From: Eutreptiella sp. 'Long Island Sound 2002' | Lineage: Eukaryota > Euglenozoa > Euglenophyceae > Eutreptiales > Eutreptiaceae | NCBI GenBank assembly: GCA_964036045.1 | Contig: OZ038384.1 | Location: 98,257,600-98,321,599 of the forward strand | Direction: 5' to 3' | DNA length: 64,000 nucleotides | In this document: positions 3,747 through 44,283 of the stretch, in pieces | How positions within the stretch are numbered: the stretch's first letter is position 1 | Layout of the letters: every line of letters starts with the position of its first letter | Translations under genes and position numbers: made by a program | Notes under the pieces: model-generated | What the model saw: the letters and a program-made list of their open reading frames with translations, nothing else | Database searches by the model: none | What the model was told of the DNA's origin: nothing

Positions 3747-3787
3747 GGTTAGGGGTAGGGTTAGGGCTAGGGTTGGGGTTAGGGTTA
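3747..3787 (+). repeat. Interstitial telomere-like tract
   Basis: About seven imperfect units of GGGTTA (with GGGGTA, GGGCTA and GGGTTG variants) lie in tandem. They are flanked by a 14-bp G run at about 3691-3704 on one side and unique sequence on the other. The tract suggests a TTAGGG-type telomere repeat in this organism, but it is short and internal. Confidence 0.55.
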
Positions 3788-4070: not shown

Positions 4071-4091
4071 TAGCGCGCCGGGCGCGCGCCG
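4071..4091. repeat. GC-rich direct repeat, left copy
   Basis: A 21-bp sequence with core AGCGCGCCGGGCGCGCGCC is present here and again at 4788-4808. The pair brackets the transposase fragment exactly. The core is itself nearly palindromic. Confidence 0.7.
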
Positions 4092-4402
4092 TGCCCTACC
4101 GGTGGACTGTTGCCGTTGATATGTTGGGCAACATTATATGGATTTGCCCCTTGGCCCGCGGGACGTCAGCAGATGTTTTGATTTGGGATGGGTATGGACC
4201 TTCTCGTACCCGAGGTGATTTCTTCGATTTCGAAGTTGGGGGCCATGATGGTGCTTATAAGGGCCGGATTCATGTCATTGTGCCATTCATTGGAAGAAAG
4301 AATGGCGCTTTGACACCCCGCCAACAATGTTACAATGACGTGCACGGGTGGTATAGGGCACACATTGAGCCGCTGTTTGCTCGGTTGTGGCACGCAAGAT
4401 GA
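4091..4402 (+). pseudogene. Truncated Harbinger-like DDE transposase (DDE_Tnp_4 type)
   Basis: The frame starting PYRWTVAVDMLGNIIW matches the conserved middle and end of DDE superfamily endonucleases of the PIF/Harbinger type. It shows a GxxxD-like step (GTSADVLIWD), a second catalytic Asp in GGHDGAYKG, then the HVIVPF segment, the L-x-x-x-Q-x-x-x-N-x-x-H-x-x-x-R series and the catalytic Glu in RAHIEPLF. The first catalytic Asp region is missing and the frame begins inside a GC-rich repeat, so this is a 5'-truncated copy. The frame closes with TGA just after the Glu helix, where a different frame takes over. It is unlikely to be active. Confidence 0.65.
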
Positions 4403-4784
4403 GGCAGAGGATGAGGCAGAAGTGTGTGTGTTGTGTTGCCAGAAGCGCTCCACCGTCGCAGTTTGTGATGATTGTAAGGAGCACTATTGTACTGAATGTA
4501 TTGACACCCACACTTGTGGGACCAATGTTATGATGCAGCTCTACTGTTCGCGATACCTCAATAACGCCTATCGTTTCTACTGGAGATCGATGCGGTTGTG
4601 CTATCCTAACCCCCCATTCTCCCAACTTGCTAAGGTGTTGACCAAGATCGCCCTTAAAGGAGCGAGAGTGGTCTCGTGTACCCCAGTTTGCAACTTTCTT
4701 GAGCTGGGGCAGTTTGGGTCACCTAATTCCAAGGGCGTTTCCAAGGGGTGTGCTTGGGGGCTCTTCGGGGGGAACATAGTCTAA
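4335..4784 (+). pseudogene. Mobile-element ORF with Cys-rich (B-box-like) finger and NPPF motif
   Basis: The first part overlaps the transposase in another frame. From about residue 30 the frame looks genuine. A CxxC-x7-CxxC-x4-CxxC series (CVLC to CTEC) resembles a B-box or related zinc finger. Then comes YWRSMRLCYPNPPFSQLAKV and a short hydrophobic strand (GARVVSCTPV). The NPPF motif with a following helix is reminiscent of the [DNS]PP[YFW] motif of adenine-N6 methyltransferases and of similar segments in some retroelements. Identification is tentative. The frame change near 4400 may be a frameshift or an unrecognised intron. Confidence 0.4.
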
Positions 4785-4787
4785 AAG

Positions 4788-4808
4788 TAGCGCGCCGGGC
4801 GCGCGCCG
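4788..4808. repeat. GC-rich direct repeat, right copy
   Basis: Second copy of the 21-bp sequence at 4071-4091, in the same orientation. It lies immediately downstream of the NPPF-motif ORF. Confidence 0.7.
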
Positions 4809-4858
4809 GGCAAACATTCCCCCTTTTGCATCCCTCATCCCACGGGGGGGTTGGGACA

Positions 4859-5105
4859 AGAGCTGGATGTCCGAGTGGTCAAGCACCTATGCTAGCACGT
4901 CATCAGCCGTGGGATCGAACCCAGCTGCTTTTAGTTCACAGTCCGGTGCCTGGGGGATCAGAGCAGTGCCGACCTGTGCGATACTCGGGAGGTGGGGCAT
5001 CCATTTTCCACACAGTACACTCACCGCAAGGTCTGGGATAGTGTACGGGTGTCTGTCTAGGACCACTGCGAGGACCGCCAAAATCCGAGCGGGGTATCTG
5101 ATGGC
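4859..5105 (+). repeat. tRNA-derived SINE-like repeat, copy 2
   Basis: Inverted near-identical partner of 3441-3687, with only a handful of substitutions over about 245 bp. The tRNA-like heads face each other across the transposase fragment, so the pair could fold into a long stem or mark one insertion inside a palindromic unit. Confidence 0.6.
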
Positions 5106-8574: not shown

Positions 8575-9530
8575 CATTCTCTCGCACTAGGGAACCATGA
8601 GGTGCGAGCACTGCAGCAACCACCAAATGCGGCGCACGCCGAGAGAGCCATCAGCAAACACCCCCCCCCCTCCCTCTACAAGGTGCCCACGTACTCCACA
8701 AGGGCGGGGGCTCCGCCCAGCGCACCGGGAGGTGCCCGCCATGGGGGGTGGCAACAGGGCCATGACCAGCCAACCGCGCATGGGACAGTCCGCGTCGTAC
8801 GGGGATGTGAAACCCTCGTACGGGGGGCAGGCGATGGGACAGGAGGGGGTGCGCGACAGGGACACCCAGGAGCACCAACAGACAGGGGGGGGAGCAACAC
8901 AGACACACAGAACGCGGGAGCCACACCAAGAGGGACAAGGGCGAGCACAGCAGACAAGGAGGAGGGGCACAGCAAGGCAGGAGAGGCAACCAGAACAGCG
9001 GGAACAGGGAACCAGAATGGAGGGTATGGCAGAGCGTGCGCATGGGAGGCAGCGACAATAAAGGGGATGGCTTGGCCAGCCAGGCCCGTCGCTACCGGGT
9101 ACCAGGGCAACCCCTGCTCAACCGGCATCAGGTGGGGGGGTGTCTCCCGCAGCCCAGATGGGCTGTTTACACAACGGGAGCGGGAGCCCATCAGGGGCAG
9201 ACCAGCCGTGAGGGGGAAAAGGACATATGGTGGACGGCCGGGACAGCGCGTGGAGGAACAGGGCACCTGGGCCTCACGCACACAGAAACACAGCGAGGCA
9301 GGCTATGGACGGCCTGTGGACAGAGGCGCGTGGATAGCAAACACAGTCAAATGACCCCGGCAACAACCAGCGCATCCTCAATACGCCAATTATTGGGCGC
9401 CGCTGACGCACAAACGGTACACCATGCCACATTCAGCACAGCCCCAACACACCAACCACTGGGCTCCACGAACGCACAAACGACACCAGCAAGAGCACGG
9501 GCCGCAGCCCCAGTTATCCGCAGGTGCCAT
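8575..9530 (+). repeat. GC-rich dispersed repeat C, copy 1
   Basis: This sequence of about 1 kb matches the minus strand of 33004-34010 at roughly 90% by eye. It also matches 62697-63160 and part of 43262-43640. The plus frame from MRCEHCSNHQMRRTPREPS is frameshifted compared with the copy at 33996-32851. The internal peptide NYWAP-x-T-x-KR is coded twice, reflecting a short tandem duplication of about 65 bp. No known transposon protein is visible. Confidence 0.6.
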
Positions 9531-20461: not shown

Positions 20462-20781
20462 TTAAGCAGCATGACTTCCGTTAAGCATTGCCTGCAGCTT
20501 GCCACTGCGGGCTGCTGCCTGTGAGTCATCGTTGCCCCCAAGATGCTGGCCCCTGATGAACACATTCGGCACCGTCCTCTGCCCCGTCAGGTCAAGCAAT
20601 GCACTCTGAATGTCCGCACCCCCATCCATTTTGTCAAGCTCCATCACCACAACGTCATATCCAGCGCCCTCCTTCGCAAACAGATCCTTGGTCTTCGTGC
20701 AGAAAGGGCAGTATGTCTTGGAGAAGATCACAGCGTCATGGGCAGCAATTGTCTCCTTGACAAACTCACTGGGCGCCTTGG
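20462..20781 (-). CDS. Poly-glutaredoxin exon 13: last glutaredoxin domain with stop
   Basis: It begins after TTTGCAG and keeps the complete glutaredoxin fold to KLQAML. It then departs from all other copies: the next codons encode NGSHAA and a TAA stop at 20462-20464. The other eleven copies run instead into a Ser/Gly/Met linker and a donor. This is therefore the natural C-terminus and the likely ancestral 3' end of a single-domain gene. Length is 320 nt, phase 1 at the start, about 105 aa, the usual size of a class I glutaredoxin. Confidence 0.85.
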
Positions 20782-21414
20782 CTGCAAATCAGACATGAAA
20801 TGGACAGCAGCACCAAAACAACACGCGCCCTATGCACACCCTCCATGGCTCGCAACAGCAGAATGCAATACACCGGGCCCTGTGTTATTATACGTGGTTG
20901 AGACAGGGATGTTCTGGTTTACTACTGGAGTTGAAAATTGTTTCTTACTTCGTCTAAGACACTGAGTCAGAAGCCAAACAACACATGGGACGATCACTGC
21001 ATTGTCTCTTTGGAGCACATGCATGCCTCAATTACGCTGCATAGGGATGTTTCTATGCAACAACACCGTGTTTGGATGTCATCGCTTGGTCCTGTTTGTT
21101 TCACGGTCGCCATAGCCCCTTGAGACATATGCCAGTCATTGGAGGAAGCTTCCCCGCTGCTGTTGTGGTGCAAGATCCCCCTGGTATTGGATGCACCATC
21201 CAGACCTTCACGCAACGTTGTTTGTTTTGAGGCTCTAAGATGAAAGGCCACTGCACCTACTGGTGAATTGGGAACAACTTACACCAATTGAAACCCACCA
21301 ATGCACCCAACTAATGCCTGCAGGGTCAGCACACACATGTGACGCCGGGTACCAAAAGAATGTGCACAGATCTCCCTGCATCCTGCTCTGCCCCAGCACA
21401 CTGCAACGGCATAC

Positions 21415-21756
21415 CACCACTGGCGCTCATCATTGCAACCGAGTCCCCGCCCCCACTCAGCATCGCCTGCAGCTTGCCACTGCGGGCTGCTGCCTGTGAG
21501 TCATCGTTGCCCCCAAGATGCTGGCCCCTGATGAACACATTCGGCACCGTCCTCTGCCCCGTCAGGTCAAGCAATGCACTCTGAATGTCCGCACCCCCAT
21601 CCATTTTGTCAAGCTCCATCACCACAACGTCATATCCAGCGCCCTCCTTCGCAAACAGATCCTTGGTCTTCGTGCAGAAAGGGCAGTATGTCTTGGAGAA
21701 GATCACAGCGTCATGGGCAGCAATTGTCTCCTTGACAAACTCACTGGGCGCCTTGG
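21415..21756 (-). CDS. Poly-glutaredoxin exon 12
   Basis: A 342-nt phase 1-1 exon encoding one domain. In the 114-residue unit the active site CPFC is at 25-28, TVP at 70-72, GGNDD at 82-86 and the linker at about 101-114. The intron base just upstream of the acceptor reads CGA instead of TGA (plus-strand ATCGGACATG), a variant shared with exons 7 and 4. Hence the open frame runs back 36 codons beyond the acceptor in those three copies. Confidence 0.85.
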
Positions 21757-22389
21757 CTGCAAATCGGACATGAAATGGACAGCAGCACCAAAACAACACG
21801 CGCCCTATGCACACCCTCCATGGCTCGCAACAGCAGAATGCAATACAACGGGCCCTGTGTTATTATACGTGGTTGAGAAAGGGATGTTCTGGTTTACTAC
21901 TGGAGTTGAAAATTGTTTCTTACTTCGTCTAAGACACTGAGTCAGAAGCCAAACAACACATGGGACGATCACTGCATTGTCTCTTTGGAGCACATGCATG
22001 CCTCAATTACGCTGCATAGGGATGTTTCTACGCAACAACACCGTGTTTGGATGTCATCGCTTGGTCCTGTTTGTTTCACGGTCGCCATAGCCCCTTGAGA
22101 CATATGCCAGTCATTGGAGGAAGCTTCCCCGCTGCTGTTGTGGTGCAAGATCCCCCTGGTATTGGATGCACCATCCAGACCTTCACGCAACGTTGTTTGT
22201 TTTGAGGCTCTAAGATGAAAGGCCACTGCACCTACTGGTGAATTGGGAACAACTTACACCAATTGAAACCCACCAATGCACCCAACTAATGCCTGCAGGG
22301 TCAGCACACACATGTGACGCCGGGTACCAAAAGAATGTGCACAGATCTCCCTGCATCCTGCTCTGCCCCAGCACACTGCAACGGCATAC

Positions 22390-22731
22390 CACCACTGGCG
22401 CTCATCATTGCAACCGAGTCCCCGCCCCCACTCAGCATCGCCTGCAGCTTGCCACTGCGGGCTGCTGCCTGTGAGTCATCGTTGCCCCCAAGATGCTGGC
22501 CCCTGATGAACACATTCGGCACCGTCCTCTGCCCCGTCAGGTCAAGCAATGCACTCTGAATGTCCGCACCCCCATCCATTTTGTCAAGCTCCATCACCAC
22601 AACGTCATATCCAGCGCCCTCCTTCGCAAACAGATCCTTGGTCTTCGTGCAGAAAGGGCAGTATGTCTTGGAGAAGATCACAGCGTCATGGGCAGCAATT
22701 GTCTCCTTGACAAACTCACTGGGCGCCTTGG
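22390..22731 (-). CDS. Poly-glutaredoxin exon 11
   Basis: Internal domain exon, 342 nt, with no residue differences from the consensus unit seen by eye. It is followed by a 633-bp intron (21757-22389). Confidence 0.85.
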
Positions 22732-23364
22732 CTGCAAATCAGACATGAAATGGACAGCAGCACCAAAACAACACGCGCCCTATGCACACCCTCCATGGCT
22801 CGCAACAGCAGAACGCAATACACCGGGCCCTGTGTTATTATACGTGGTTGAGACAGGGATGTTCTGGTTTACTACTGGAGTTGAAAATTGTTTCTTACTT
22901 CGTCTAAGACACTGAGTCAGAAGCCAAACAACACATGGGACGATCACTGCATTGTCTCTTTGGAGCACATGCATGCCTCAATTACGCTGCATAGGGATGT
23001 TTCTACGCAACAACACCGTGTTTGGATGTCATCGCTTGGTCCTGTTTGTTTCACGGTCGCCATAGCCCCTTGAGACATATGCCAGTCATTGGAGGAAGCT
23101 TCCCCGCTGCTGTTGTGGTGCAAGATCCCCCTGGTATTGGATGCACCATCCAGACCTTCACGCAACGTTGTTTGTTTTGAGGCTCTAAGATGAAAGGCCA
23201 CTGCACCTACTGGTGAATTGGGAACAACTTACACCAATTGAAACCCACCAATGCACCCAACTAATGCCTGCAGGGTCAGCACACACATGTGACGCCGGGT
23301 ACCAAAAGAATGTGCACAGATCTCCCTGCATCCTGCTCTGCCCCAGCACACTGCAACGGCATAC

Positions 23365-23706
23365 CACCACTGGCGCTCATCATTGCAACCGAGTCCCCGC
23401 CCCCACTCAGCATCGCCTGCAGCTTGCCACTGCGGGCTGCTGCCTGTGAGTCATCGTTGCCCCCAAGATGCTGGCCCCTGATGAACACATTCGGCACCGT
23501 CCTCTGCCCCGTCAGGTCAAGCAATGCACTCTGAATGTCCGCACCCCCATCCATTTTGTCAAGCTCCATCACCACAACGTCATATCCAGCGCCCTCCTTC
23601 GCAAACAGATCCTTGGTCTTCGTGCAGAAAGGGCAGTATGTCTTGGAGAAGATCACAGCGTCATGGGCAGCAATTGTCTCCTTGACAAACTCACTGGGCG
23701 CCTTGG
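23365..23706 (-). CDS. Poly-glutaredoxin exon 10
   Basis: Internal domain exon, 342 nt, consensus sequence. The adjoining unit is essentially identical to that of exon 11, pointing to a very recent copy event. Confidence 0.85.
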
Positions 23707-24339
23707 CTGCAAATCAGACATGAAATGGACAGCAGCACCAAAACAACACGCGCCCTATGCACACCCTCCATGGCTCGCAACAGCAGAACGCAATACACCG
23801 GGCCCTGTGTTATTATACGTGGTTGAGACAGGGATGTTCTGGTTTACTACTGGAGTTGAAAATTGTTTCTTACTTCGTCTAAGACACTGAGTCAGAAGCC
23901 AAACAACACATGGGACGATCACTGCATTGTCTCTTTGGAGCACATGCATGCCTCAATTACGCTGCATAGGGATGTTTCTACGCAACAACACCGTGTTTGG
24001 ATGTCATCGCTTGGTCCTGTTTGTTTCACGGTCGCCATAGCCCCTTGAGACATATGCCAGTCATTGGAGGAAGCTTCCCCGCTGCTGTTGTGGTGCAAGA
24101 TCCCCCTGGTATTGGATGCACCATCCAGACCTTCACGCAACGTTGTTTGTTTTGAGGCTCTAAGATGAAAGGCCACTGCACCTACTGGTGAATTGGGAAC
24201 AACTTACACCAATTGAAACCCACCAATGCACCCAACTAATGCCTGCAGGGTCAGCACACACATGTGACGCCGGGTACCAAAAGAATGTGCACAGATCTCC
24301 CTGCATCCTGCTCTGCCCCAGCACACTGCAACGGCATAC

Positions 24340-24681
24340 CACCACTGGCGCTCATCATTGCAACCGAGTCCCCGCCCCCACTCAGCATCGCCTGCAGCTT
24401 GCCACTGCGGGCTGCTGCCTGTGAGTCATCGTTGCCCCCAAGATGCTGGCCCCTGATGAACACATTCGGCACCGTCCTCTGCCCCGTCAGGTCAAGCAAT
24501 GCACTCTGAATGTCCGCACCCCCATCCATTTTGTCAAGCTCCATCACCACAACGTCATATCCAGCGCCCTCCTTCGCAAACAGATCCTTGGTCTTCGTGC
24601 AGAAAGGGCAGTATGTCTTGGAGAAGATCACAGCGTCATGGGCAGCAATTGTCTCCTTGACAAACTCACTGGGCGCCTTGG
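24340..24681 (-). CDS. Poly-glutaredoxin exon 9
   Basis: Internal domain exon, consensus protein. Its upstream intron carries the variant TTACACGTGG (others TTATACGTGG), shared only with exon 8's unit. Confidence 0.85.
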
Positions 24682-25314
24682 CTGCAAATCAGACATGAAA
24701 TGGACAGCAGCACCAAAACAACACGCGCCCTATGCACACCCTCCATGGCTCGCAACAGCAGAATGCAATACAACGGGCCCTGTGTTATTACACGTGGTTG
24801 AGACAGGGATGTTCTGGTTTACTACTGGAGTTGAAAATTGTTTCTTACTTCGTCTAAGACACTGAGTCAGAAGCCAAACAACACATGGGACGATCACTGC
24901 ATTGTCTCTTTGGAGCACATGCATGCCTCAATTACGCTGCATAGGGATGTTTCTACGCAACAACACCGTGTTTGGATGTCATCGCTTGGTCCTGTTTGTT
25001 TCACGGTCGCCATAGCCCCTTGAGACATATGCCAGTCATTGGAGGAAGCTTCCCCGCTGCTGTTGTGGTGCAAGATCCCCCTGGTATTGGATGCATCATC
25101 CAGACCTTCACGCAACGTTGTTTGTTTTGAGGCTCTAAGATGAAAGGCCACTGCACCTACTGGTGAATTGGGAACAACTTACACCAATTGAAACCCACCA
25201 ATGCACCCAACTAATGCCTGCAGGGTCAGCACACACATGTGACGCCGGGTACCAAAAGAATGTGCACAGATCTCCCTGCATCCTGCTCTGCCCCAGCACA
25301 CTGCAACGGCATAC

Positions 25315-25656
25315 CACCACTGGCGCTCATCATTGCAACCGAGTCCCCGCCCCCACTCAGCATCGCCTGCAGCTTGCCACTGCGGGCTGCTGCCTGTGAG
25401 TCATCGTTGCCCCCAAGATGCTGGCCCCTGATGAACACATTCGGCACCGTCCTCTGCCCCGTCAGGTCAAGCAATGCACTCTGAATGTCCGCACCCCCAT
25501 CCATTTTGTCAAGCTCCATCACCACAACGTCATATCCAGCGCCCTCCTTCGCAAACAGATCCTTGGTCTTCGTGCAGAAAGGGCAGTATGTCTTGGAGAA
25601 GATCACAGCGTCATGGGCAGCAATTGTCTCCTTGACAAACTCACTGGGCGCCTTGG
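25315..25656 (-). CDS. Poly-glutaredoxin exon 8
   Basis: Internal domain exon, consensus protein. It shares the TTACACGTGG intron marker with exon 9, so the two are sister copies. Confidence 0.85.
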
Positions 25657-26289
25657 CTGCAAATCAGACATGAAATGGACAGCAGCACCAAAACAACACG
25701 CGCCCTATGCACACCCTCCATGGCTCGCAACAGCAGAACGCAATACAACGGGCCCTGTGTTATTACACGTGGTTGAGACAGGGATGTTCTGGTTTACTAC
25801 TGGAGTTGAAAATTGTTTCTTACTTCGTCTAAGACACTGAGTCAGAAGCCAAACAACACATGGGACGATCACTGCATTGTCTCTTTGGAGCACATGCATG
25901 CCTCAATTACGCTGCATAGGGATGTTTCTACGCAACAACACCGTGTTTGGATGTCATCGCTTGGTCCTGTTTGTTTCACGGTCGCCATAGCCCCTTGAGA
26001 CATATGCCAGTCATTGGAGGAAGCTTCCCCGCTGCTGTTGTGGTGCAAGATCCCCCTGGTATTGGATGCACCATCCAGACCTTCACGCAACGTTGTTTGT
26101 TTTGAGGCTCTAAGATGAAAGGCCACTGCACCTACTGGTGAATTGGGAACAACTTACACCAATTGAAACCCACCAATGCACCCAACTAATGCCTGCAGGG
26201 TCAGCACACACATGTGACGCCGGGTACCAAAAGAATGTGCACAGATCTCCCTGCATCCTGCTCTGCCCCAGCACACTGCAACGGCATAC

Positions 26290-26631
26290 CACCACTGGCG
26301 CTCATCATTGCAACCGAGTCCCCGCCCCCACTCAGCATCGCCTGCAGCTTGCCACTGCGGGCTGCTGCCTGTGAGTCATCGTTGCCCCCAAGATGCTGGC
26401 CCCTGATGAACACATTCGGCACCGTCCTCTGCCCCGTCAGGTCAAGCAATGCACTCTGAATGTCCGCACCCCCATCCATTTTGTCAAGCTCCATCACCAC
26501 AACGTCATATCCAGCGCCCTCCTTCGCAAACAGATCCTTGGTCTTCGTGCAGAAAGGGCAGTATGTCTTGGAGAAGATCACAGCGTCATGGGCAGCAATT
26601 GTCTCCTTGACAAACTCACTGGGCGCCTTGG
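26290..26631 (-). CDS. Poly-glutaredoxin exon 7
   Basis: Internal domain exon, consensus protein. The unit upstream carries the short-intron sequence, and its flank matches that of exon 4, 2871 bp away (three units), marking a higher-order duplication. Confidence 0.85.
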
Positions 26632-27210
26632 CTGCAAATCGGACATGAAATGGACAGCAGCACCAAAACAACACGCGCCCTATGCACACCCTCCATGGCT
26701 CGCAACAGCAGAACGCAATACACCGGGCCCTGTGTTATTATACGTGGTTGAGACAGGGATGTTCTGGTTTACTACTGGAGTTGAAAATTGTTTCTTACTT
26801 CGTCTAAGACACTGAGTCAGAAGCCAAACAACACATGGGACGATCACTGCATTGTCTCTTTGGAGCACATGCATGCCTCAATTACGCAGCATAGGGATGT
26901 TTCTACGCAACAACACCGTGTTTGGATGTCATCGCTTGGTCCTGTTTGTTTCACCACCTCTATAGCCCCTGTAGACTTATGCGAATCATTGGACTAGCTC
27001 CATCGCACTGGTATTTGATGCACCATCCAGACCCCCACCCAACGTTGTTTGTTTTGAGGCTCTAAGATGAAAGGCCACTGCACCTACTAGTGAATTGGGA
27101 ACAACTTACACCAATTGCAACCCACCAATGCACCCAACTAATGCCTGCAGGGTCCGCACACCCATCCTCCCCTGCATCCTGCTCTGCCCCAGCACACTGC
27201 AACGGCATAC

Positions 27211-27552
27211 CACCACTGGCGCTCATCATTGCAACCGAGTCCCCGCCCCCACTCAGCATTGCCTGCAGCTTGCCACTGCGGGCTGCTGCCTGTGAGTCAT
27301 CGTTGCCCCCAAGATGCTGGCCCCTGATGAACACATTCGGCACCGTCCTCTGCCCCGTCAGGTCAAGCAATGCACTCTGAATGTCCGCACCCCCATCCAT
27401 TTTGTCAAGCTCCATCACCACAACGTCATATCCAGCGCCCTCCTTCGCAAACAGATCCTTGGTCTTCGTGCAGAAAGGGCAGTATGTCTTGGAGAAGATC
27501 ACAGCGTCATGGGCAGCAATTGTCTCCTTGACAACCTCACTGGGCGCCTTGG
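27211..27552 (-). CDS. Poly-glutaredoxin exon 6
   Basis: Internal domain exon with one amino-acid change: the Phe of PSEFVKE is Val (GTT for TTT), outside the active site. A synonymous GCA for GCG precedes the Met-Leu that ends the fold. It is followed by a 579-bp intron. Confidence 0.85.
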
Positions 27553-28185
27553 CTGCAAATCAGACATGAAATGGACAGCAGCACCAAAACAACACGCGCC
27601 CTATGCACACCCTCCATGGCTCGCAACAGCAGAATGCAATACAACGGGCCCTGTGTTATTATACGTGGTTGAGACAGGGATGTTCTGGTTTACTACTGGA
27701 GTTGAAAATTGTTTCTTACTTCGTCTAAGACACTGAGTCAGAAGCCAAACAACACATGGGACGATCACTGCATTGTCTCTTTGGAGCACATGCATGCCTC
27801 AATTACGCTGCATAGGGATGTTTCTACGCAACAACACCGTGTTTGGATGTCATCGCTTGGTCCTGTTTGTTTCACGGTCGCCATAGCCCCTTGAGACATA
27901 TGCCAGTCATTGGAGGAAGCTTCCCCGCTGCTGTTGTGGTGCAAGATCCCCCTGGTATTGGATGCATCATCCAGACCTTCACGCAACGTTGTTTGTTTTG
28001 AGGCTCTAAGATGAAAGGCCACTGCACCTACTGGTGAATTGGGAACAACTTACACCAATTGAAACCCACCAATGCACCCAACTAATGCCTGCAGGGTCAG
28101 CACACACATGTGACGCCGGGTACCAAAAGAATGTGCACAGATCTCCCTGCATCCTGCTCTGCCCCAGCACACTGCAACGGCATAC

Positions 28186-28527
28186 CACCACTGGCGCTCA
28201 TCATTGCAACCGAGTCCCCGCCCCCACTCAGCATCGCCTGCAGCTTGCCACTGCGGGCTGCTGCCTGTGAGTCATCGTTGCCCCCAAGATGCTGGCCCCT
28301 GATGAACACATTCGGCACCGTCCTCTGCCCCGTCAGGTCAAGCAATGCACTCTGAATGTCCGCACCCCCATCCATTTTGTCAAGCTCCATCACCACAACG
28401 TCATATCCAGCGCCCTCCTTCGCAAACAGATCCTTGGTCTTCGTGCAGAAAGGGCAGTATGTCTTGGAGAAGATCACAGCGTCATGGGCAGCAATTGTCT
28501 CCTTGACAAACTCACTGGGCGCCTTGG
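28186..28527 (-). CDS. Poly-glutaredoxin exon 5
   Basis: Internal domain exon, consensus protein, followed by a 633-bp intron. The ATGCATCATCC intron variant is shared with its neighbours. Confidence 0.85.
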
Positions 28528-29160
28528 CTGCAAATCAGACATGAAATGGACAGCAGCACCAAAACAACACGCGCCCTATGCACACCCTCCATGGCTCGCA
28601 ACAGCAGAATGCAATACAACGGGCCCTGTGTTATTATACGTGGTTGAGACAGGGATGTTCTGGTTTACTACTGGAGTTGAAAATTGTTTCTTACTTCGTC
28701 TAAGACACTGAGTCAGAAGCCAAACAACACATGGGACGATCACTGCATTGTCTCTTTGGAGCACATGCATGCCTCAATTACGCTGCATAGGGATGTTTCT
28801 ACGCAACAACACCGTGTTTGGATGTCATCGCTTGGTCCTGTTTGTTTCACGGTCGCCATAGCCCCTTGAGACATATGCCAGTCATTGGAGGAAGCTTCCC
28901 CGCTGCTGTTGTGGTGCAAGATCCCCCTGGTATTGGATGCATCATCCAGACCTTCACGCAACGTTGTTTGTTTTGAGGCTCTAAGATGAAAGGCCACTGC
29001 ACCTACTGGTGAATTGGGAACAACTTACACCAATTGAAACCCACCAATGCACCCAACTAATGCCTGCAGGGTCAGCACACACATGTGACGCCGGGTACCA
29101 AAAGAATGTGCACAGATCTCCCTGCATCCTGCTCTGCCCCAGCACACTGCAACGGCATAC

Positions 29161-29502
29161 CACCACTGGCGCTCATCATTGCAACCGAGTCCCCGCCCCC
29201 ACTCAGCATCGCCTGCAGCTTGCCACTGCGGGCTGCTGCCTGTGAGTCATCGTTGCCCCCAAGATGCTGGCCCCTGATGAACACATTCGGCACCGTCCTC
29301 TGCCCCGTCAGGTCAAGCAATGCACTCTGAATGTCCGCACCCCCATCCATTTTGTCAAGCTCCATCACCACAACGTCATATCCAGCGCCCTCCTTCGCAA
29401 ACAGATCCTTGGTCTTCGTGCAGAAAGGGCAGTATGTCTTGGAGAAGATCACAGCGTCATGGGCAGCAATTGTCTCCTTGACAAACTCACTGGGCGCCTT
29501 GG
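29161..29502 (-). CDS. Poly-glutaredoxin exon 4
   Basis: Internal domain exon, consensus protein. It is the partner of exon 7 in the three-unit duplication: both have ATCGGACATG upstream of the acceptor and ACGCAGCATAGG in the intron. Confidence 0.85.
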
Positions 29503-30081
29503 CTGCAAATCGGACATGAAATGGACAGCAGCACCAAAACAACACGCGCCCTATGCACACCCTCCATGGCTCGCAACAGCAGAACGCAATACACCGGGCC
29601 CTGTGTTATTATACGTGGTTGAGACAGGGATGTTCTGGTTTACTACTGGAGTTGAAAATTGTTTCTTACTTCGTCTAAGACACTGAGTCAGAAGCCAAAC
29701 AACACATGGGACGATCACTGCATTGTCTCTTTGGAGCACATGCATGCCTCAATTACGCAGCATAGGGATGTTTCTACGCAACAACACCGTGTTTGGATGT
29801 CATCGCTTGGTCCTGTTTGTTTCACCACCTCTATAGCCCCTGTAGACTTATGCGAATCATTGGACTAGCTCCATCGCACTGGTATTTGATGCATCATCCA
29901 GACCCCCACCCAACGTTGTTTGTTTTGAGGCTCTAAGATGAAAGGCCACTGCACCTACTAGTGAATTGGGAACAACTTACACCAATTGAAACCCACCAAT
30001 GCACCCAACTAATGCCTGCAGGGTCCGCACATCCATCCTCCCCTGCATCTTGCTCTGCCCCAGCACACTGCAACGGCATAC

Positions 30082-30423
30082 CACCACTGGCGCTCATCAT
30101 TGCAACCGAGTCCCCGCCCCCACTCAGCATTGCCTGCAGCTTGCCACTGCGGGCTGCTGCCTGTGAGTCATCGTTGCCCCCAAGATGCTGGCCCCTGATG
30201 AACACATTCGGCACCGTCCTCTGCCCCGTCAGGTCAAGCAATGCACTCTGAATGTCCGCACCCCCATCCATTTCGTCAAGCTCCATCACCACAACGTCAT
30301 ATCCAGCGCCCTCCTTCGCAAACAGATCCTTGGTCTTCGTGCAGAAAGGGCAGTATGTCTTGGAGAAGATCACAGCGTCATGGGCAGCAATTGTCTCCTT
30401 GACAAACTCACTGGGCGCCTTGG
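30082..30423 (-). CDS. Poly-glutaredoxin exon 3
   Basis: Internal domain exon with a Lys-to-Glu change in MELDKMDGG (plus-strand TTTCGTC for TTTTGTC), on the surface loop before the third strand. It is followed by a 579-bp intron. Confidence 0.85.
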
Positions 30424-31002
30424 CTGCAAATCAGACATGAAATGGACAGCAGCACCAAAACAACACGCGCCTTATGCACACCCTCCATGGCTCGCAACAG
30501 CAGAACGCAATACAACGGGCCCTGTGTTATTATACGTGGTTGAGACAGGGATGTTCTGGTTTACTACTGGAGTTGAAAATTGTTTCTTACTTCGTCTAAG
30601 ACACTGAGTCAGAAGCCAAACAACACATGGGACGATCACTGCATTGTCTCTTTGGAGCACATGCATGCCTCAATTACGCTGCATAGGGATGTTTCTACGC
30701 AACAACACCGTGTTTGGATGTCATCGCTTGGTCCTGTTTGTTTCACCACCTCTATAGCCCCTGTAGACTTATGCGAATCATTGGACTAGCTCCATCGCAC
30801 TGGTATTTGATGCATCATCCAGACCCCCACCCAACGTTGTTTGTTTTGAGGCTCTAAGATGAAAGGCCACTGCACCTACTAGTGAATTGGGAACAACTTA
30901 CACCAATTGCAACCCACCAATGCACCCAACTAATGCCTGCAGGGTCCGCACACCCATCCTCCCCTGCATCTTGCTCTGCCCCAGCACACTGCAACGGCAT
31001 AC

Positions 31003-31344
31003 CACCACTGGCGCTCATCATTGCAACCGAGTCCCCGCCCCCACTCAGCATCGCCTGCAGCTTGCCACTGCGGGCTGCTGCCTGTGAGTCATCGTTGCCC
31101 CCAAGATGCTGGCCCCTGATGAACACATTCGGCACCGTCCTCTGCCCCGTCAGGTCAAGCAATGCACTCTGAATGTCCGCACCCCCATCCATTTTGTCAA
31201 GCTCCATCACCACAACGTCATATCCAGCGCCCTCCTTCGCAAACAGATCCTTGGTCTTCGTGCAGAAAGGGCAGTATGTCTTGGAGAAGATCACAGCGTC
31301 ATGGGCAGCAATTGTCTCCTTGACAAACTCACTGGGCGCCTTGG
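31003..31344 (-). CDS. Poly-glutaredoxin exon 2: first glutaredoxin domain
   Basis: The 5'-most domain. Sequence upstream of its acceptor matches the array only to about 31445, then becomes unique, so this copy marks the 5' edge of the array. Its acceptor is phase 1 and accepts exon 1 across a 1283-bp intron (31345-32627). Confidence 0.85.
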
Positions 31345-31784
31345 CTGCAAATCAGACATGAAATGGACAGCAGCACCAAAACAACACGTGCCCTATGCAC
31401 ACCCTCCATGGCTCACAACAGCAGAACGCACTAAACCGGGCACTGTGATATTGCCAACTTCTATGTCCCACCGTTCTGGAATTGTCATGCATTTCGCTTT
31501 CCCCACGCTTTCGGAAGTAAGGAACGACATTCAACTCCAGTATGAAACCAGCACCTCCCCATCTCCGCCCTGTATTGGCACTAGATCACCGCATCGTCCC
31601 TTCAGCATGTTTGAACCCTCCACTACATACCATGAATTCCGACACCACACATAAGTTGGAGGAAATCGCCGGGAATTTCCGAAGCCTTTTCGAAATTTCT
31701 TGGAAAATTACCGTAGGTTTGGGACTTTTCGACAAATATTCTTGTCGCATTTTCCCCATCAAATTCTGAGCAGTTTGACTACAC

Positions 31785-32620
31785 TTGTGGGGGGGGGGGG
31801 GGGGTAAATCACTGTTGTCCCCTGTGCGTAGGTTTTGGAGGTCTGGAGCAGCGGGGAGGGGGTGGGGTCAATGGTCAGGTTGCAGTGTCCGCATTAGGCT
31901 CTGGTCGCACCTGCTCCCTGCGACTTCCATCGCCCACTGTCCATTCCAGTCGCTTCCAGTGCATTCAGGTCCCCCCTGAATGTCTGGATTGCGATCGTCA
32001 GGACTCTATCGGGTCGGGCGTGCATACAGGTCAACGGTCACTCCTGTGCTGGGTGCATTACTGCTGGCCCCATTCGGCCCTCCCAGGTCCGGCTTTGCGC
32101 GGTCCTTGGGACGAAATACCCAGTGGGACCAGGTTGTGGCTGGAGGGGCAATGACATTCAACATTCAGGGGTGGGGGTGCGTGTGCTCTGCTTGCTGGGA
32201 TTCCCCTGAGCGGCTGTTGTGTAGCCGATCTGGGTCCTCCATTGCCATCAGCTGCAGGGGCCTCAATAGGTCAGGTGTGGACCCGCCACTTAGCTCCAGC
32301 TGCGCCTGCCTCACGACCTTCATTGCCATCTCAGTTCCTTGATTGTGCGTGTCACGCGGACAGGGCATTGCAGTTCTTGTCCCTTCCCTCCGCCCTGAAT
32401 GGGGTAAGAGTTGGGCTGCTTCTACAGGGTTCTGGGCTTTGTCGCCTTTTGGACTGAGTTCGGGGCGTAGCGTTAAAATGTGTCCCATTTTGGTGTCCGC
32501 CGGTGCACTGGTATGCTTGCTCAGCTGCGGGGGGGGGGGGGGGGGGCAGGGTGCCCGCTTACACGTCCCGCGTGGGTCATGTCGTGTTGCGAGCACATTT
32601 GGACACAAAGCGTGTGGTGG
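31785..32620 (-). other. Non-array part of candidate intron 1
   Basis: It contains two long homopolymers (14 G at about 31789 and 18 G at about 32529 on the plus strand). I see no other exon with matching phases, though a small one could be missed. Confidence 0.4.
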
Positions 32621-32627
32621 GGCATAC

Positions 32628-32766
32628 CGCTGCTGGACATCATGGCCCACTGGAGCGTTGCCGGGCGCGAGTTGTGGGAGTAAAGATACCACATCATCGC
32701 TACGCTCAGCGCGCCGACGGGGACCAGCAGAAGCCGAAGGAGATCGAAGCGCTCCTGCAAAGGCAT
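32628..32766 (-). CDS. Poly-glutaredoxin candidate exon 1: start codon and membrane anchor
   Basis: The exon opens MPLQERFDLLRLLLVPVGAL followed by SVAMMWYLYSHNS, giving a hydrophobic stretch of about 20 residues (9-29) behind a short charged N-terminus, the form of a signal anchor. It ends in TLQWAMMSSS with donor AGCAGCG|GTATGCC, phase 1. This is the same donor and phase as the internal glutaredoxin exons, so it joins exon 2 in frame (SSS-A-KAPSEF). The frame has no stop for some distance upstream, so a longer exon or another start is possible. The join is inferred from phase and donor match only. Confidence 0.5.
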
Positions 32767-33003
32767 AGACCCCCTTGACAAAGCCTTCCCCAACGAAGGT
32801 GATGGCAGACCATGGGAAGCGGGCAGGGGTTTGCTTGAGGGGGAGGCGGGTTATGGGGGTAATTCCAGAGCTGCAGAGCGGTCACAGGGCACTGTGAAAG
32901 TGGTTAGGGGGCGGTAACTGGCGGTTGGAAATGCGATTGGGACTGGTGTTGCGGTGTGGAAATGCCTTTGGGGTGGAGTTAGGGCCGGAGTCTTAAGAGC
33001 CCC

Positions 33004-34010
33004 CCCCTGTGTGACATTCCGTCTGGTTGTTGCTCCTTTACGGGGCCCTGGACAGTCACCTGTTCTTCCCTTCGCATGTTGCGACGGGTCGCTGTTTTCT
33101 GTCGGCCGCTGCGGCCGGTGCTCTTGCTGGTGTCGTTTCCGCGTTCGCGGAGCCCAGTAGTTGGTGTGTTGGGGCTGTACTGAATGTGGCATGGTGTGCC
33201 GTTTGCGCGTCAGCGGCGCCCAATAATTGGCGTATTGAGGATGTGCTGGTTGTTGCCGGGGTCGTTTGACTGTTTTTGCTATCCACGCGCCTCTGTCCAC
33301 AGGCCGTTCGTAGCCTGCTTCGCTGTGTTTCTGTGTGTGTGAGGCCCAGGTGCCCTGTTCCTCCACGCGCTGTCCCAGCCGTCCATCATATGTCCTTTTC
33401 CCCCTCACGGCTGGTCTGCCCCTGATGGGCTTCCGCTCCTGTTGCGCAAACAGCCCATCTGGGCTGCGGGAGACACCCCCCACCTGATGCCGGTTGAGCA
33501 GGGGTTGCCCTGGCACCCGGTAGCGACGGGGCTTTATTGTCGCTGCCTCCCATGCGCACGCTCTGCCATCCGCTCCATTCTGGTTCCCTGTCCCTGCTGT
33601 TCTGGTTGCCTCTCCTGCCTTGCTGTGCCCCTCCTCCTTGTTTGCTGTGCTCGCCCTTGTCCCTCCTGGTGTGGCTCCCGCGTTCTGTGTGTCTGTGTTG
33701 CTCCTCCCCCTGTCTGTTGGCGCTCCTGGGTGCCCCTGTTGTGCACCCCCTCCTATCCCACCCGCCTGCCCCCCGTACGAGGGTTTCACGTCCCCGTACG
33801 ACGTGGACTGTCCCGTGCGCGGTTGGCTGGTCACGGCCCTGTTGCCACCCCCGTGGCGGGCACCTCCCGGCGCGCGAGGCGCAGTTCCCGCCCTTGTGGA
33901 GTACGTGGGCACCTTGTAGAGGGAGGGGAGGGGGTTTGCTGATGGCTCTCTCGGCGTGTGCCGCATTTGGTGGTTGCTGCAGTGTTCGCACCTCATGGTT
34001 CCCTTGTGTA
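33004..34010 (-). repeat. GC-rich dispersed repeat C, copy 2 (fullest)
   Basis: On the minus strand it carries an uninterrupted frame of 381 codons (33996-32851), starting MRCEHCSNHQMRHTPREPS and rich in R, T, G, Q and P. The frame includes a CxxC-type start, a duplicated NYWAP motif and a C-terminal HAKGRTGDCPGPRKGATTR. It resembles no family I know; a gag-like or low-complexity element protein is possible. It lies directly upstream of the poly-glutaredoxin gene, so that promoter may fall in or beside it. Confidence 0.55.
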
Positions 34011-35786
34011 TTGTTGTGTGTCATGTTGGGGCTCGTCTCACTGCCGTGTGTGGGGCGGCCCTGTGCCCAGTCGCTTTGCTGCTTGCGTTCCTCCCAATTT
34101 CGGGCTCTTTCTTTTTCTGCTGGCACGCTCATTGCTGCTAGTGTGCAGCGCTAGGGGGGCAGCATGTCGCTCCCTGCATCCCATTGTGGCTGTCGGGTTG
34201 TCCCACTTGCAGTTGGGTGGTACAAGGGGCACCGGGCACTGTTGCACATGTCTCCAAATCTACAAACTTACCTGTCACTGGTGGTTGTTGGGGTTGTTCT
34301 GGGGTGAATGTGGTGCATTGTTGCTCTTTTGCTTTCTGGGCTGCTGAGGGGCTCCCTGTTTGAGGACTTCACTCCGGGCTGTCCACGCCTCGGAGCTAGG
34401 GACTCGTGTGAGTCCACCCCCTGGTTGGTCGTGTGCAGTGACCATCAATGGTTTGGACGCTGTGTCTCATAAGCGTGCCCAAGGCCCTTGCACTAGGCCC
34501 TGGTGATAGAACTTAGCTACTCGCGGGCAGTACATGTTTTAGTACATGTTTTAGGTCGCTGCCCAATGGACAACCATGTAGCCGGCTGCCAACCCCCCGC
34601 AGGGGCGACCCCCTTACTTAGGTTTGGGTTGCCTTCTCCTCCCGGTGTGGTCGGGATGGTGATGGCTCCCGGGAGTGCATCAGGGAAGCATCCCTTCTAT
34701 GTTGTGTGTAGGTGTGGCCTTGGTTGTTGCGTGTGTGGTGGACGCCGTGTTGGCGTTGGGGCGTGGGGTCGTGGGCCCTTGGTGATGCTCCACATTCGTG
34801 CCTTGTTTGTGGGCAGCGGTGGCTGTGTGTGGGTGAAGTGTCCGTGTTGTGGGTTTGGCCCCCACGCTGGGTGTTGGGTGTTGGGCTGGTGTTGGTGCTT
34901 GCGGTGAGTGGTGTGGCTGTCCGCCGCTATTGTTGCAGTACACTACTTTGCTTTGCTCTGTTGTACTTGTTGTACTGTGTGCTATGTGTTGGCGTGTGCT
35001 GGCGCATTTGTGTGCCTCTGCCGGCTTTGGTCTGCTGCGCTGCGTTGTGTGCTATGCTGCCTCCGCGTTGTGCGCTACGCTGCCTCCGTGAGGCGTGGCG
35101 GCCGCGGCTACCCGGGCACGGCCGCTCCCCCCGTTGGGGCCGAGTTCGGGTAACCTCCGAAGCGCTTGGATAGCGCCGCCCACCCATTGGCTGGGAAGTC
35201 CCGAGCCCCTGGGGCCTGCCTTTGAGGCTCCCCCCCCCCCCAGTGATTCCCTTGAAGCCGGTGAGGAGGGTGCGCACGGGGGCTGGGTGCGGGCAGTCAG
35301 TAAGCGATACCTTGCTCCCTGGCAGAGCCTTCACAAACGGGTAGGGTGTAGTACAAACTCAGAAAAAGGGCGGCGTGGAGTAGCGGCCCCAGGCGGAAGT
35401 TTTCTGACAAAAATGGTCCTTGTGACACATGATTCAACAAGATCAGTGCGTCGTGGGGGATTGCCTGAGGCAAATGTGTCGGAGTAGCCCCACGCCTCCA
35501 CCCATGCCTGGGGGGGGGGGGGGGGATGATTTGGCCCCCTGGACAACACCGGCTGACCCACCTCCCACCCGCATCAGAAAAATTTTCCTCCGGAGAAAAA
35601 TGAAATTTCTTGAAGGTACACAAACTTTGCTTTGGCCTCTGACCCTGCCCCCCCCTCCCCAGAGGTGGTGGGGGGGGGGGGGGATTCTGCCCACTGGGCT
35701 ACGGCCCGCACGGGAGCGTCTTTCCTGACCCCCCCTTGCCTCCCTCATGATCAAGCTAGTGCGGTCCCTCGGAAAAATTTCTTGTG
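34011..35786. other. Unassigned GT-rich sequence
   Basis: Between about 34680 and 35060 the plus strand is GT-rich with repeated GTTGGGTGTTGGG-like words. No protein is recognised. C and G tracts lie at about 35230, 35511 and 35669. Confidence 0.4.
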
Positions 35787-36304
35787 CTGCGGCATGCTGC
35801 GGCACGCTGCGGCATGCTGCGGCATGCTGCGGCACGCTGCGGCATGCTGCGGCATGCTTCTGCCTGCACATGTGGGTACCTACACTTCTATGGGAGCAGA
35901 CAGACAAGGCAGACAAGCTGATGTGGTCCCCAATACCTTCCCAATACACCAAAAAAGCGGAGATCTGTGCAACAATAGAGAGGAACTGACAGGCAAAACA
36001 TTGCCCTTTCCGGGAATGGAACCCAGGACACTCCAAAATGGTATGTGGTACATAGACCACTGAGCTACCATCCAGTTCTGGAATATCTGTGCAACAAAGG
36101 CTTCAGATGTTCGACGTGTTATGAAAAAAAAAGTCCGCCATGTGAAAATTTTGGCTCGCTGCGGCATGCTGCGGCATGCTGCGGCACGCTGCGGCATGCT
36201 GCGGCATGCTTCAAAACCCCCATGTGCAGCTCCAAAAAACAGGTGCTGCGGCATGCTGCGGCATGCTGCGGCACGCTGCGGCATGCTGCGGCATGCTGCG
36301 GCTG
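35787..36304. repeat. 10-bp palindrome-containing minisatellite in three clusters
   Basis: The unit GCTGCGGCAT/GCTGCGGCAC repeats in clusters at 35787-35859, 36157-36212 and 36244-36304. Most junctions create GCATGC. The CAT/CAC variants follow the same order in the clusters (CAT CAT CAC CAT CAT). It reads through as RHAAACCGML on one strand and PQHAAACRSV on the other. Confidence 0.85.
36002..36073 (-). repeat. tRNA-like sequence, probably SINE head
   Basis: On the minus strand GGTAGCTCAGTGGTC is a good A box. CTGGGTTCCATTCCCGG makes a complete T arm (five pairs, one wobble). The D stem and acceptor stem do not close, so I read it as a tRNA-derived repeat between two minisatellite clusters. 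Confidence 0.45.
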
Positions 36305-36450
36305 CACTAGCTTGCTCATGATTGTACTATGCCTTCATACCCCATGATTGCAGTGTGCCCCAACACCCGAGGATTGCACCGGAATACTGGCACAACGGAC
36401 CAATCACCCCCCACCCACACATCCATGACCACCCCCGCACCCGCGCATAC

Positions 36451-36837
36451 CCCGGCCGCGCCCATGGCGCCTTGATGCGTGTTGGCGCGAGGCCCCTGGG
36501 CTTGTAAGGCACCCAATCGGCGCACACTGCCCACTGTCGGTCCGCCGGAAGCCACAGAGACTGGTTGGCTCAGCCTTGCTCTTTCCTGGAGGTACGGACT
36601 TCGCCACACCGAGGCCTCAGGAGCCGTGGCGATTGGCTGAGTGGCACCCGCTGTTGGGCCCACTGTACTCCAGAGATTGGTGGGTCGTGGACTAATATGG
36701 GGCACTGACAGGGACAGGGCAAGGAGGCCGGCAGCTGCAGCCAGGGCCCCCACAACGTGGGAGGGAGCCACGGCGCTTGAAGGGGAAGACTCAGGCACCG
36801 CCATGGGTATGCTGTGGTATGTGCCTTGCTGTGACAT
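36451..36837 (-). CDS. Putative exon of a single-pass membrane or targeted protein
   Basis: From ATG the frame reads MSQQGTYHSIPMAVPESSPS, then a hydrophobic segment VVGALAAAAGLLALSLSV at residues about 28-47, then a Pro/Thr-rich and Arg-containing tail (SPYLQERARLSQPV). It ends at a GCCGGG|GTATGC donor in phase 0, 129 codons in all. The donor matches the style seen in the other genes here. An alternative start is an acceptor at ATGGACTCAG just upstream. No family is recognised and the next exon was not found. It could be a targeting or anchor exon. Confidence 0.35.
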
Positions 36838-41093: not shown

Positions 41094-41287
41094 CTGCGCA
41101 GACGATGCATGGACCGACACAAAGGGCTGGTGCCGGCACCAATCAGGTGCCTGGCACCCGCACAACTGCATGGATTGTGCGTGTCCGTCGAGTGCGAAAA
41201 CGAAACATGTTTCATAAAGTCCAACGACCTTGAATGTAGCAACGAGAGACAATCGTCCTTCATGCAACTGTTGGCGTACACTGGAGA

Positions 41288-41640
41288 CAGCATGGGTTAT
41301 GTAGCCACCAGGCCCACTTATGGGCCCTTTTTGATTTTGTCCCCTACTCTGAAGCGGTGGGGACCCCCCAAATAGCAGGGTTTATGTAGCCACTAGGCCT
41401 ACTTGTAGGCCCTTTCTGATTTTGTCCCCTGCTCTGAAGCGTTGGGGACCCCTTAGACAGCACGGGTTATGCAGCCACTAGGCCCATTTGTGGGCCCTTT
41501 GTGGTTTTGTCCCCTGCTTTGAAGTGTTGGGGACCCCTCAGGCAGCACGGGTTATGTAGCCACCAGGCCCACTTGTGGGCCACCTCTGATTTTGTCTCCT
41601 GCTCTGAAGCGTTGGGGACCCCTCAGGCAGCACGGGTCAC
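41288..41640. repeat. Four tandem copies of an 85-bp repeat in phosphatase intron 3
   Basis: Units start CAGCACGGGTTATGTAGCC and end TTGGGGACCCCTCAGG. Start points are 41288, 41374, 41458 and 41543, with a fifth partial unit at 41628. The two central copies differ slightly more from the others. They are non-coding. Confidence 0.9.
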
Positions 41641-43261: not shown

Positions 43262-43640
43262 GCCCCCCTGTGTGACATTCCGTCGGGTTGCTGTTTCTTT
43301 ACGGGGCCCTGGACAGTCACCCGTGCTTCCCTTCGCGTGTTGCGTCGGGTGCTGCGTTTTGTCGGCCGCTGCGGCCGCTGCTCGTGCTGGTGTCATTTCC
43401 GCGTTCGCGGAGCCCCGTGGTTGGTGTGCTGGGGCTGTGCTGGTTGCGGCGGGTGCCGTTTGTGCCTTAGCGGTGCCCAGCAGTTGGCGTACCGGGGGTT
43501 GTGCTGGTTGCTGCGGGGTTCAATTGACGGTTTTTGCTGCCCACGCACCTCCGGTCGCCCACAACCTGGTTCGCTGCGTTCCCGTGTGCGTGAGGCCCAG
43601 GTGCCCCACTCCTCCACACGTTGAACCGGCCGTCCACCCC
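43262..43640 (-). repeat. GC-rich dispersed repeat C, copy 3 (partial, diverged)
   Basis: It carries the terminal block TGTGTGACATTCCGTCGGGT and the duplicated core with CCCGTGGTTGGTGTGCTGGG. It loses similarity after about 43640. It is inserted in phosphatase intron 2. Confidence 0.6.
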
Positions 43641-44068
43641 CTGCGCTCCACCACTCTGTGGGTCGCGCGTGCGACGCGTTCCTCGATGGTCGCGGGTAGC
43701 GTGCGCTTCGCGGGTGGTGTGCGCTCCGCTATGGTTGACGTGGGTGGCGTGTGCGCTTGCGTGGTGTCCGGGGTGATGCACGGTGGCCGAGCAGTCGTCC
43801 TTGGTTCTGCCCACCCCGGTTTTGTCGGAGGTTCCTTCCCTTCACCCCCTTCCGGAAAAAGGTTTGTCAATCTTTTGAATCTCAGCTTTTCAGTATGTGC
43901 GTCCCATGTCCCCGGGGGAGGCGAGAAAAAGGTTTGTGGGGGGGGGGGGGTCGTTCGAGCACCCTTGACGGTTTGGCGGCGTTTTGGCAAGCAAGAGAGC
44001 GGCACCGAGTGAGCAAGCAGTAGCCAATGGTCAACTTAGACCTGTGCAGGGCTGAATCACAAGCACAC

Positions 44069-44283
44069 CTTATTCTTCAACACTTCCAAAGCTTCCTTGA
44101 CCCCAGGATACAGCACCACGTTCCCCTCCCAATGATTGATTTGATGTTCAAAGTGCGCTTGTGCCCAAGATTCCACGACACTTTCGTCGCATGGAATTTG
44201 GTGCTGTTCGCCGATCTCCTTGTATTGTTGCCGAAGCGGTTTGCCTATGGTCTTCTTCACTTCGGCATCAGTCATATTGATGC
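44069..44283 (-). CDS. HAD-family phosphatase, exon 2 (cap domain)
   Basis: It runs from acceptor CTCATTCAG|GC (phase 1) to donor AATAAG|GTGTGC (phase 0), 215 nt. It encodes an all-helical cap: INMTDAEVKKTIGKPLRQQY, a Glu/His-rich middle, then LYPGVKEALEVLKNK. The LYPGV-x-E-x-L-x-x-L step into exon 3's strand is typical of class C1 HAD phosphatases with a four-helix cap. Confidence 0.85.

Follow-up and report, generated by a model that had tools for sequence, protein, structure and literature searches.

Twelve tandem glutaredoxin exons in the euglenophyte Eutreptiella: a gene that appears to encode a plastid polyprotein

The stretch of DNA described here (the window) is 64,000 nucleotides (nt) long, corresponds to C7:98257600-98321599 of the genome of Eutreptiella sp. 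'Long Island Sound 2002' and carries a tandem array of glutaredoxin (Grx) units on its minus strand. A pattern search of the window finds twelve such units at a spacing of 975 or 921 nt. A first-pass annotation of this DNA proposed that they constitute one gene with twelve fused dithiol Grx domains. This proposal is supported, as splicing is in frame for 12/12 Grx exons and the two-domain relative P0121 crosses the junctions. The gene model has 14 exons and a product of 1520 amino acids (158 kDa), and 13/13 introns begin with GTATGC and end with TTGCAG. The genome searched for comparison comprises 2,280,300,865 bases in 2205 contigs, of which C7 has a length of 99.9 Mb. The gene is composed of the following parts (positions are those of the window).

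36451..36804, minus strand: putative exon 0, predicted signal peptide with hydrophobic segment 1 at residues 17-35, then a transit-like spacer of 85 amino acids; open frame, donor at 36450
32755..36450, minus strand: intron, 3696 nt, GTATGC..TTGCAG, containing an interspersed repeat copy (about 33002-34008)
32628..32754, minus strand: exon 1, second hydrophobic segment, junction ...QWAMMSSS|AKAPSEF, aligned with P0121
31345..32627, minus strand: intron, 1283 nt, with 92.6% identity between its final 108 nt and the internal introns used for comparison (types i1, i3)
31003..31344, minus strand: Grx exon 1, 342 nt
30082..30423, minus strand: Grx exon 2, K to E
29161..29502, minus strand: Grx exon 3
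28186..28527, minus strand: Grx exon 4
27211..27552, minus strand: Grx exon 5, F to V
26290..26631, minus strand: Grx exon 6
25315..25656, minus strand: Grx exon 7
24340..24681, minus strand: Grx exon 8
23365..23706, minus strand: Grx exon 9
22390..22731, minus strand: Grx exon 10
21415..21756, minus strand: Grx exon 11
20462..20781, minus strand: Grx exon 12, terminal, LNGSHAA then TAA
20782..31002, minus strand: region with the eleven introns between Grx exons, 633 nt (eight) or 579 nt (three)

Grx exons 1-11 are 342 nt each and are in phase 1 at both ends, and the terminal exon is 320 nt long. The first-pass annotation had described these exon lengths and phases, and had placed a stop in the twelfth unit alone; both descriptions are confirmed, the eleven full exons being without a stop. 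Its spacer length of 633 bp is correct for eight of the eleven internal introns and wrong for the three of 579 nt. At the protein level nine of the eleven full units are identical, and units 2 and 5 each carry the one replacement listed above. Every internal intron interrupts the linker at the codon G|CC that comes after ...SASG. Read-through of each of the eleven full exons reaches a stop after 30 or 50 intron codons. The units were said to have no starts of their own, and indeed none of the twelve has an in-frame ATG upstream of the fold; nine of the twelve frames close two codons or fewer upstream. After splicing, the twelve domains lie in one chain with one stop, which is the tandem arrangement of the polyprotein class.

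The Grx unit matches PF00462 and scores 97.6 bits against NCBIfam TIGR02180 (GRX_euk; cut-off 87.25). The motifs of class I dithiol Grx, CPFC, TVPNVF (with the cis-proline of TVP) and GGNDD, are present in all twelve. The modelled fold of the unit has a mean predicted local distance difference test (pLDDT) score of 92.8, and Foldseek matches it to zebrafish and human Grx2 and to wheat, yeast and Chlorella Grx. The pLDDT of the linker (the last 14 residues) is 53-62 compared with 94-99 for the fold, and the linker is predicted to be flexible or disordered. The unit shares family, profile and fold with the class I dithiol Grx of the CPYC type and differs from them by CPFC, by the presence of twelve units per chain and by the linker tail of 14 amino acids. 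According to the available part of PMC8161271, a proline after the first active-site Cys blocks iron-sulfur (Fe-S) binding in some class I Grx, but two CPYC Grx still bind. Because CPFC has this proline, oxidoreductase function is likelier than Fe-S carriage for the Grx of the array. The gene is not of the PICOT/Grx3 kind, of which the monothiol motif is CGFS, as it has CPFC and a presequence in place of the thioredoxin (Trx)-like domain. PICOT types combine a Trx-like domain with one to three monothiol Grx, as stated in the portions available of PMC6558291 and PMC2757866.

The start of the gene was previously placed at the ATG at 32766. This ATG falls within the 3'-terminal 12 nt of an intron (TCTATGCCTTTGCAG|GAG), and the exon that follows starts at 32754; that intron has the acceptor hexamer common to the other introns of the gene. 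Exon 0 (36804-36451) has its phase-0 donor at GGG|GTATGC and joins 32754 in frame across the intron of 3696 nt. We infer that exon 0 is the true first exon, and with it the product has 1520 amino acids instead of the 1406 annotated earlier. It was spotted by eye in the list of frames, and a scan for upstream hydrophobic segments (threshold 2.1) missed it. The resulting presequence has hydrophobic peaks at residues 17-35 and 121-139, and its spacer of 85 residues contains 44% S/T/A/P, 3 acidic and 8 basic residues. The corresponding peaks are at 20-38 and 111-129 in P0121, and at 27-45 and 115-133, 69 apart, in an RbcS polyprotein presequence of the same genome. With its two hydrophobic segments the N-terminus resembles the euglenophyte Class I plastid presequence.

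P0121 is a protein of 357 amino acids from a Joint Genome Institute (JGI) contig of 1327 bases, for which a cDNA or genomic source is unstated. It is identical to the spliced product at 144 of 224 positions (64%), from WAMANASA-IAPKDF through the domain junction TSG-AKASPKD. As the alignment spans both the presequence-domain and the domain-domain junction, the two kinds of junction are supported independently of the window. In the relatives P0005-P0008 (66-76% identical) the domain terminates in VAMM(S/A)x, then SGG or SSG, and dissimilar sequence follows, as the end of an unspliced internal exon would look.

A Grx profile was made without the window and without its five nearest relatives. It finds twelve domains in the array chain, and one (89 proteins), two (36), three (15) or four (3) domains in 143 comparison proteins. 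These are the best 120 of 325 matches, 20 further ones of 29 (9 being shared) and three more, from searches that scored only the roughly 8000 candidates with the most shared words. The three proteins with four domains are MsrA-Grx P0122, TGR-like P0123 and fungal P0133, and their domains are divergent. The earlier statement that known multi-Grx proteins have two or three domains was therefore too low, and the check for proteins with five or more, which it had recommended, gives a maximum of four among the 143; the chain of twelve stands alone. The other Grx genes examined in the genome (C18, C9 and two on C5) are single-domain. In IMG/VR, a search for the Grx unit gave two stretches that fit the pattern, neither of which was confirmed. 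A single-domain, diatom-like Grx gene at C807:2635-3064, on an 18-kb contig of which the first 6 kb have 41% GC, is probably contamination from another alga.

The genome contains a second Grx array (array B; the array of the window is array A) and several light-harvesting polyprotein loci, with which the linkers can be compared.

C13:53967217-53978646: array B, linker IAMMSMSG, unit 1 with AKARNEF instead of AKAPSEF
C15:9198488-9250342: light-harvesting array that accounts for 19 of the listed matches, with adjacent listed ones mostly spaced by about 1.45-1.47 kb
C9:43682069-43694992 and C23:19070551-19075362: open reading frames (4424 and 6122 amino acids) with light-harvesting matches

The linker of array A reads VAMMSASG|AKA, and the form shared by the two Grx arrays is [VI]-A-M-x-x-x-S-G-x-K-A. 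Two light-harvesting frames have 23 linkers or junctions, namely APSPVAMFAAFGRKAAP (15 times), APSPVAMFAASGRVSDN (6 times), APSPVAMFAASGRKAAE (once) and GTAPVAMAAAFGRKAAP (once). The score of the commonest form is reached by 7, 0 and 2 of 5000 shuffles for array A, array B and P0121, respectively. The same counts are 30, 1 and 61 for the second form (6 of the 23), 0, 0 and 2 for the third form, which is seen once, and 26, 12 and 0 for the C15 linker as spliced from the DNA. Thus, the linkers of arrays A and B match all four light-harvesting forms at 0-30 of 5000 shuffles. When the linkers of array A, array B and P0121 are compared with all distinct 17-residue windows of the two frames (481 and 678), the light-harvesting linker is the top match in both. 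The light-harvesting polyproteins, a kind known from Euglena, have in this genome the linker PVAMFAAFGRKA (or FAASGRKA), near the Grx linkers SVAMMSASGAKA and PIAMMSMSGAKA, and differ in cargo. In the C15 array, 6/6 complete units in the part fetched are exons of 654 nt in phase 1. In C15 the intron interrupts the Gly codon of ...FATSG-TK, whereas the Grx introns split the next codon, Ala, of ...SASG-AK and ...SMSG-AK. The intron phase is therefore the same in the three arrays, and the position in the linker agrees within one codon. Judged by sequence, the linker between Grx domains belongs to the light-harvesting type, and the end of the presequence does not.

A different derivation, in which the linker is a copy of the presequence tail, was also considered. 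The similarity is weak: the match of the exon-1 tail to the internal linker is reached by 949 of 20000 protein shuffles and by 337 of 5000 DNA shuffles. Of the listed relatives with at least 45 residues before the fold, 57 of 71 have M and a small or polar residue at that site, compared with 5 of 71 in a control stretch, and this pair may mark only a former start Met. The idea was set aside because the light-harvesting match is stronger and is not shared by the exon-1 junction.

The two RbcS polyprotein frames read in the genome are uninterrupted, with 10 units in 1693 amino acids (C11) and 11 units in 1642 amino acids (C14), whereas the Grx array has one exon per unit and an intron in the linker. 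The best solved-structure matches of the RbcS units are chloroplast small subunits. Among 21 RbcS unit starts, 14 are preceded by SYWAMAGTTGEKD and 5 by ATWAVTGEKE. Of the other two, the one on C11 comes after the end of the presequence (VSMAAATGEKD), and the one on C14 lies at the upstream limit of its frame, after GWHGTTGEKD. The Euglena RbcS linker given in the available text of PMC4938576 is (G/N)MAAMTGEKD. The RbcS polyproteins with TGEKD linkers and the many light-harvesting polyproteins point to a euglenophyte host, and an ochrophyte or green-algal host, initially suggested by the Grx matches, was rejected on their account. On many contigs, dozens of scattered matches align with the second half of RuBisCO_small (about positions 51-97 of the model); many of them lie in frames of exactly 81 amino acids, and they are perhaps a mobile repeat with a 3' piece of RbcS.

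Array B consists of ten exons, all of 342 nt (10/10), with a period of 1232 nt, introns of 890 nt and the donor G|GTATGG. Its domain is 48-50% identical to that of array A, and in 10/10 units the active-site CxxC is absent, DRLG standing in place of CPFC. It retains 13 of the 22 residues that are invariant among 41 aligned Grx and scores 90 bits with the Grx profile, compared with 155 for array A. Identity between the arrays is 14/16 at the N-terminal junction, 6/24 in the active-site region, 7/14 in the linker tail and 6/8 in the tail core. The ratio of nonsynonymous to synonymous substitution (dN/dS) between them is 0.43, and dS is 0.90. A degenerate C-terminal Grx segment with a stop at about 53965486 (C13) looks like the terminal exon of array B. 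Two pattern scans of the 7.35 kb upstream gave no candidate for its presequence exon.

The internal introns of array A are of two types. The 633-nt and 579-nt types are distinguished by 33-37 aligned differences and by indels, mostly in the 5' 60% of the intron, and introns of one type differ from each other at 0-6 sites. The order of the types along the array is A A B B A B B B B B B (letters for intron types, not arrays), and several introns have private variants. In units 3/4 and 8/9, both the exons and the introns that follow them are identical. The array has 3/342 variable columns in exons and 42/633 in introns. Within the commoner intron type the figures are 0/342 and 7/633 (p 0.10, not significant), and array B, with 6/342 and 24/890 (p 0.41), has no exon-intron contrast. 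Exon conservation was rejected as proof of selection on the array, as 51 of 975 circular shifts are equally low. Recent homogenization explains much of the exon identity, and the near-identity of the units is probably maintained by unequal exchange and conversion inside the array. A segment of 52 nt (31514-31565) in the intron preceding Grx exon 1 recurs inverted in the internal introns with 81% identity. The repeat in the first intron belongs to an interspersed family with copies at 33002-34008, 8585-9508, 43262-43638 and 62694-63178, which are 78-96% identical.

Elsewhere in the window, a fragment of a HAD-like hydrolase (PF13419 slightly below the cut-off) lies at 44057-44632 on the minus strand. 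At 41285-41637 there is a tandem repeat with a unit of 85 bp, present in about 4 copies, and a CACAC microsatellite of 48 copies occupies 60538-60778. Rfam and tRNA scans of the window gave no matches.

By combining these observations with what is known of plastid polyproteins, it is possible to propose what the gene encodes. In the parts available, PMC4938576 and PMC6242988 describe RbcS polyproteins and Class I presequences in Euglena, and name RbcS, light-harvesting proteins, phosphoglycerate kinase and EF-Ts as its plastid polyproteins. The RbcS polyprotein of E. gracilis and E. longa shares with the Grx array tandem units, a short linker and, as predicted for the array, a Class I presequence, and it has 8 units instead of 12 and a different cargo; in E. 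gracilis the linkers are reportedly excised in the plastid (same sources). The dinoflagellate form II Rubisco polyprotein, as far as the available section of PMC3747160 describes it, likewise has a presequence with two transmembrane regions, tandem units and a 21-amino-acid spacer, and differs in its 3-4 units, its protein and its lineage. It is quite probable that the array is a nuclear gene for a plastid-targeted polyprotein, in which a Class I-type presequence precedes 12 Grx that are cut into monomers. Cutting is the likelier fate of the chain because the linkers match those of light-harvesting polyproteins and the N-terminus resembles a plastid presequence.

One promoter would then give rise to one mRNA covering all units. 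The signal peptide would lead the chain, and the second hydrophobic segment would anchor it en route to the plastid, into which it would be imported as a single chain. The linkers would be excised there by the putative protease that matures the RbcS and light-harvesting polyproteins, releasing 12 dithiol Grx of about 11 kDa each per message. The freed Grx would reduce glutathionylated proteins with glutathione. The gain would be one of dose, as a single promoter and a single import event would serve 12 enzymes.

Several points weigh against this proposal. Exon 0 is itself deduced and its ATG is uncertain, with three in-frame candidates at 36804, 36837 and 36855. The spacer of 85 amino acids exceeds the published Class I rule of 60+/-8. 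The similarity between Grx and RbcS linkers is weak: one of 15 pairs gives 0 of 2000 shuffles, three are near 1% (18, 18 and 27) and eleven are at 63 or more. The exon-1 junction and the end of the P0121 presequence match no light-harvesting linker (1322-5000 of 5000 shuffles) and fit a non-linker window best in the light-harvesting frames. The nearest named Grx relatives (among the best 120 of 378 matches) are ochrophytes, namely diatoms and a bolidophyte, and the Grx gene of the array could be of ochrophyte origin. Finally, the available part of PMC4938576 reports that the RbcS chain of E. longa is uncut; hence the cutting of the Grx chain cannot be assumed.

The E. longa case also favors the foremost alternative, in which the chain stays uncut and forms a membrane-anchored string of 12 Grx that acts as a local thiol buffer. 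A hydrophobic segment does precede the array and the linker is predicted to be flexible, but the linkers match those of other polyproteins encoded by this genome, and linkers of such a kind are reportedly excised in E. gracilis (PMC4938576, part available). This alternative is unlikely, and the tethered high-capacity thiol-disulfide buffer suggested in the first pass is not supported, given the polyprotein-type linkers and the plastid-type presequence. It is improbable as well that the symmetrical phase 1-1 exons are variably skipped, which would give a protein ladder ranging from 1 to 12 domains. In favor of this, the eleven full exons, alike in length and phase, have identical donors and near-identical acceptors, but a polymerase chain reaction (PCR) ladder obtained from E. 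longa RbcS cDNA was ascribed by its authors to mispaired incomplete strands (PMC4938576, in the part available).

There is a small chance that the copy number was inflated by assembly of near-identical repeats. The identical exons and introns of units 3/4 and 8/9 would agree with this, but the ordered intron types and private variants argue against it, and an error of this kind would affect the count and not the architecture. TGTAA is the green-algal poly(A) signal. It is highly improbable that the array is twelve single-domain genes with promoters and poly(A) sites of their own in the spacers: TGTAA is found in 11/11 spacers, read-through of the full exons meets intronic stops and some intronic ATGs (introns 1 and 3 were examined) could start a spliced first exon, but the units lack in-frame ATGs before the fold, most frames close just upstream, the full exons have no stop and P0121 is a fused two-domain protein.

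The proposal of a plastid-targeted polyprotein adds a redox enzyme to the plastid polyproteins, known so far for bulk proteins of photosynthesis and a small number of other proteins, and the array carries their type of linker on a cargo unrelated to theirs. A Grx polyprotein, a sister array without CxxC and exon modules split in the linker were not found in the literature searched, which included few subscription journals. Short-read transcriptomes may misassemble such repeats and miss such genes, as reported for E. longa RbcS (PMC4938576, available part).

A more tentative suggestion, which we hold to be possible but not the likelier case, is that the linker-bounded symmetrical phase-1 exon is a reusable device that yields a polyprotein upon tandem duplication, and that array B might supply the plastid, from each mRNA, with ten copies of a Grx-like protein that has no redox role and perhaps binds glutathione or acts as a scaffold. 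Array B poses the question of the purpose of a Grx, predicted to be catalytically dead, that is produced ten at a time. The unit formed by a single exon with the intron in the linker suggests a route by which polyproteins may originate and change their copy number.

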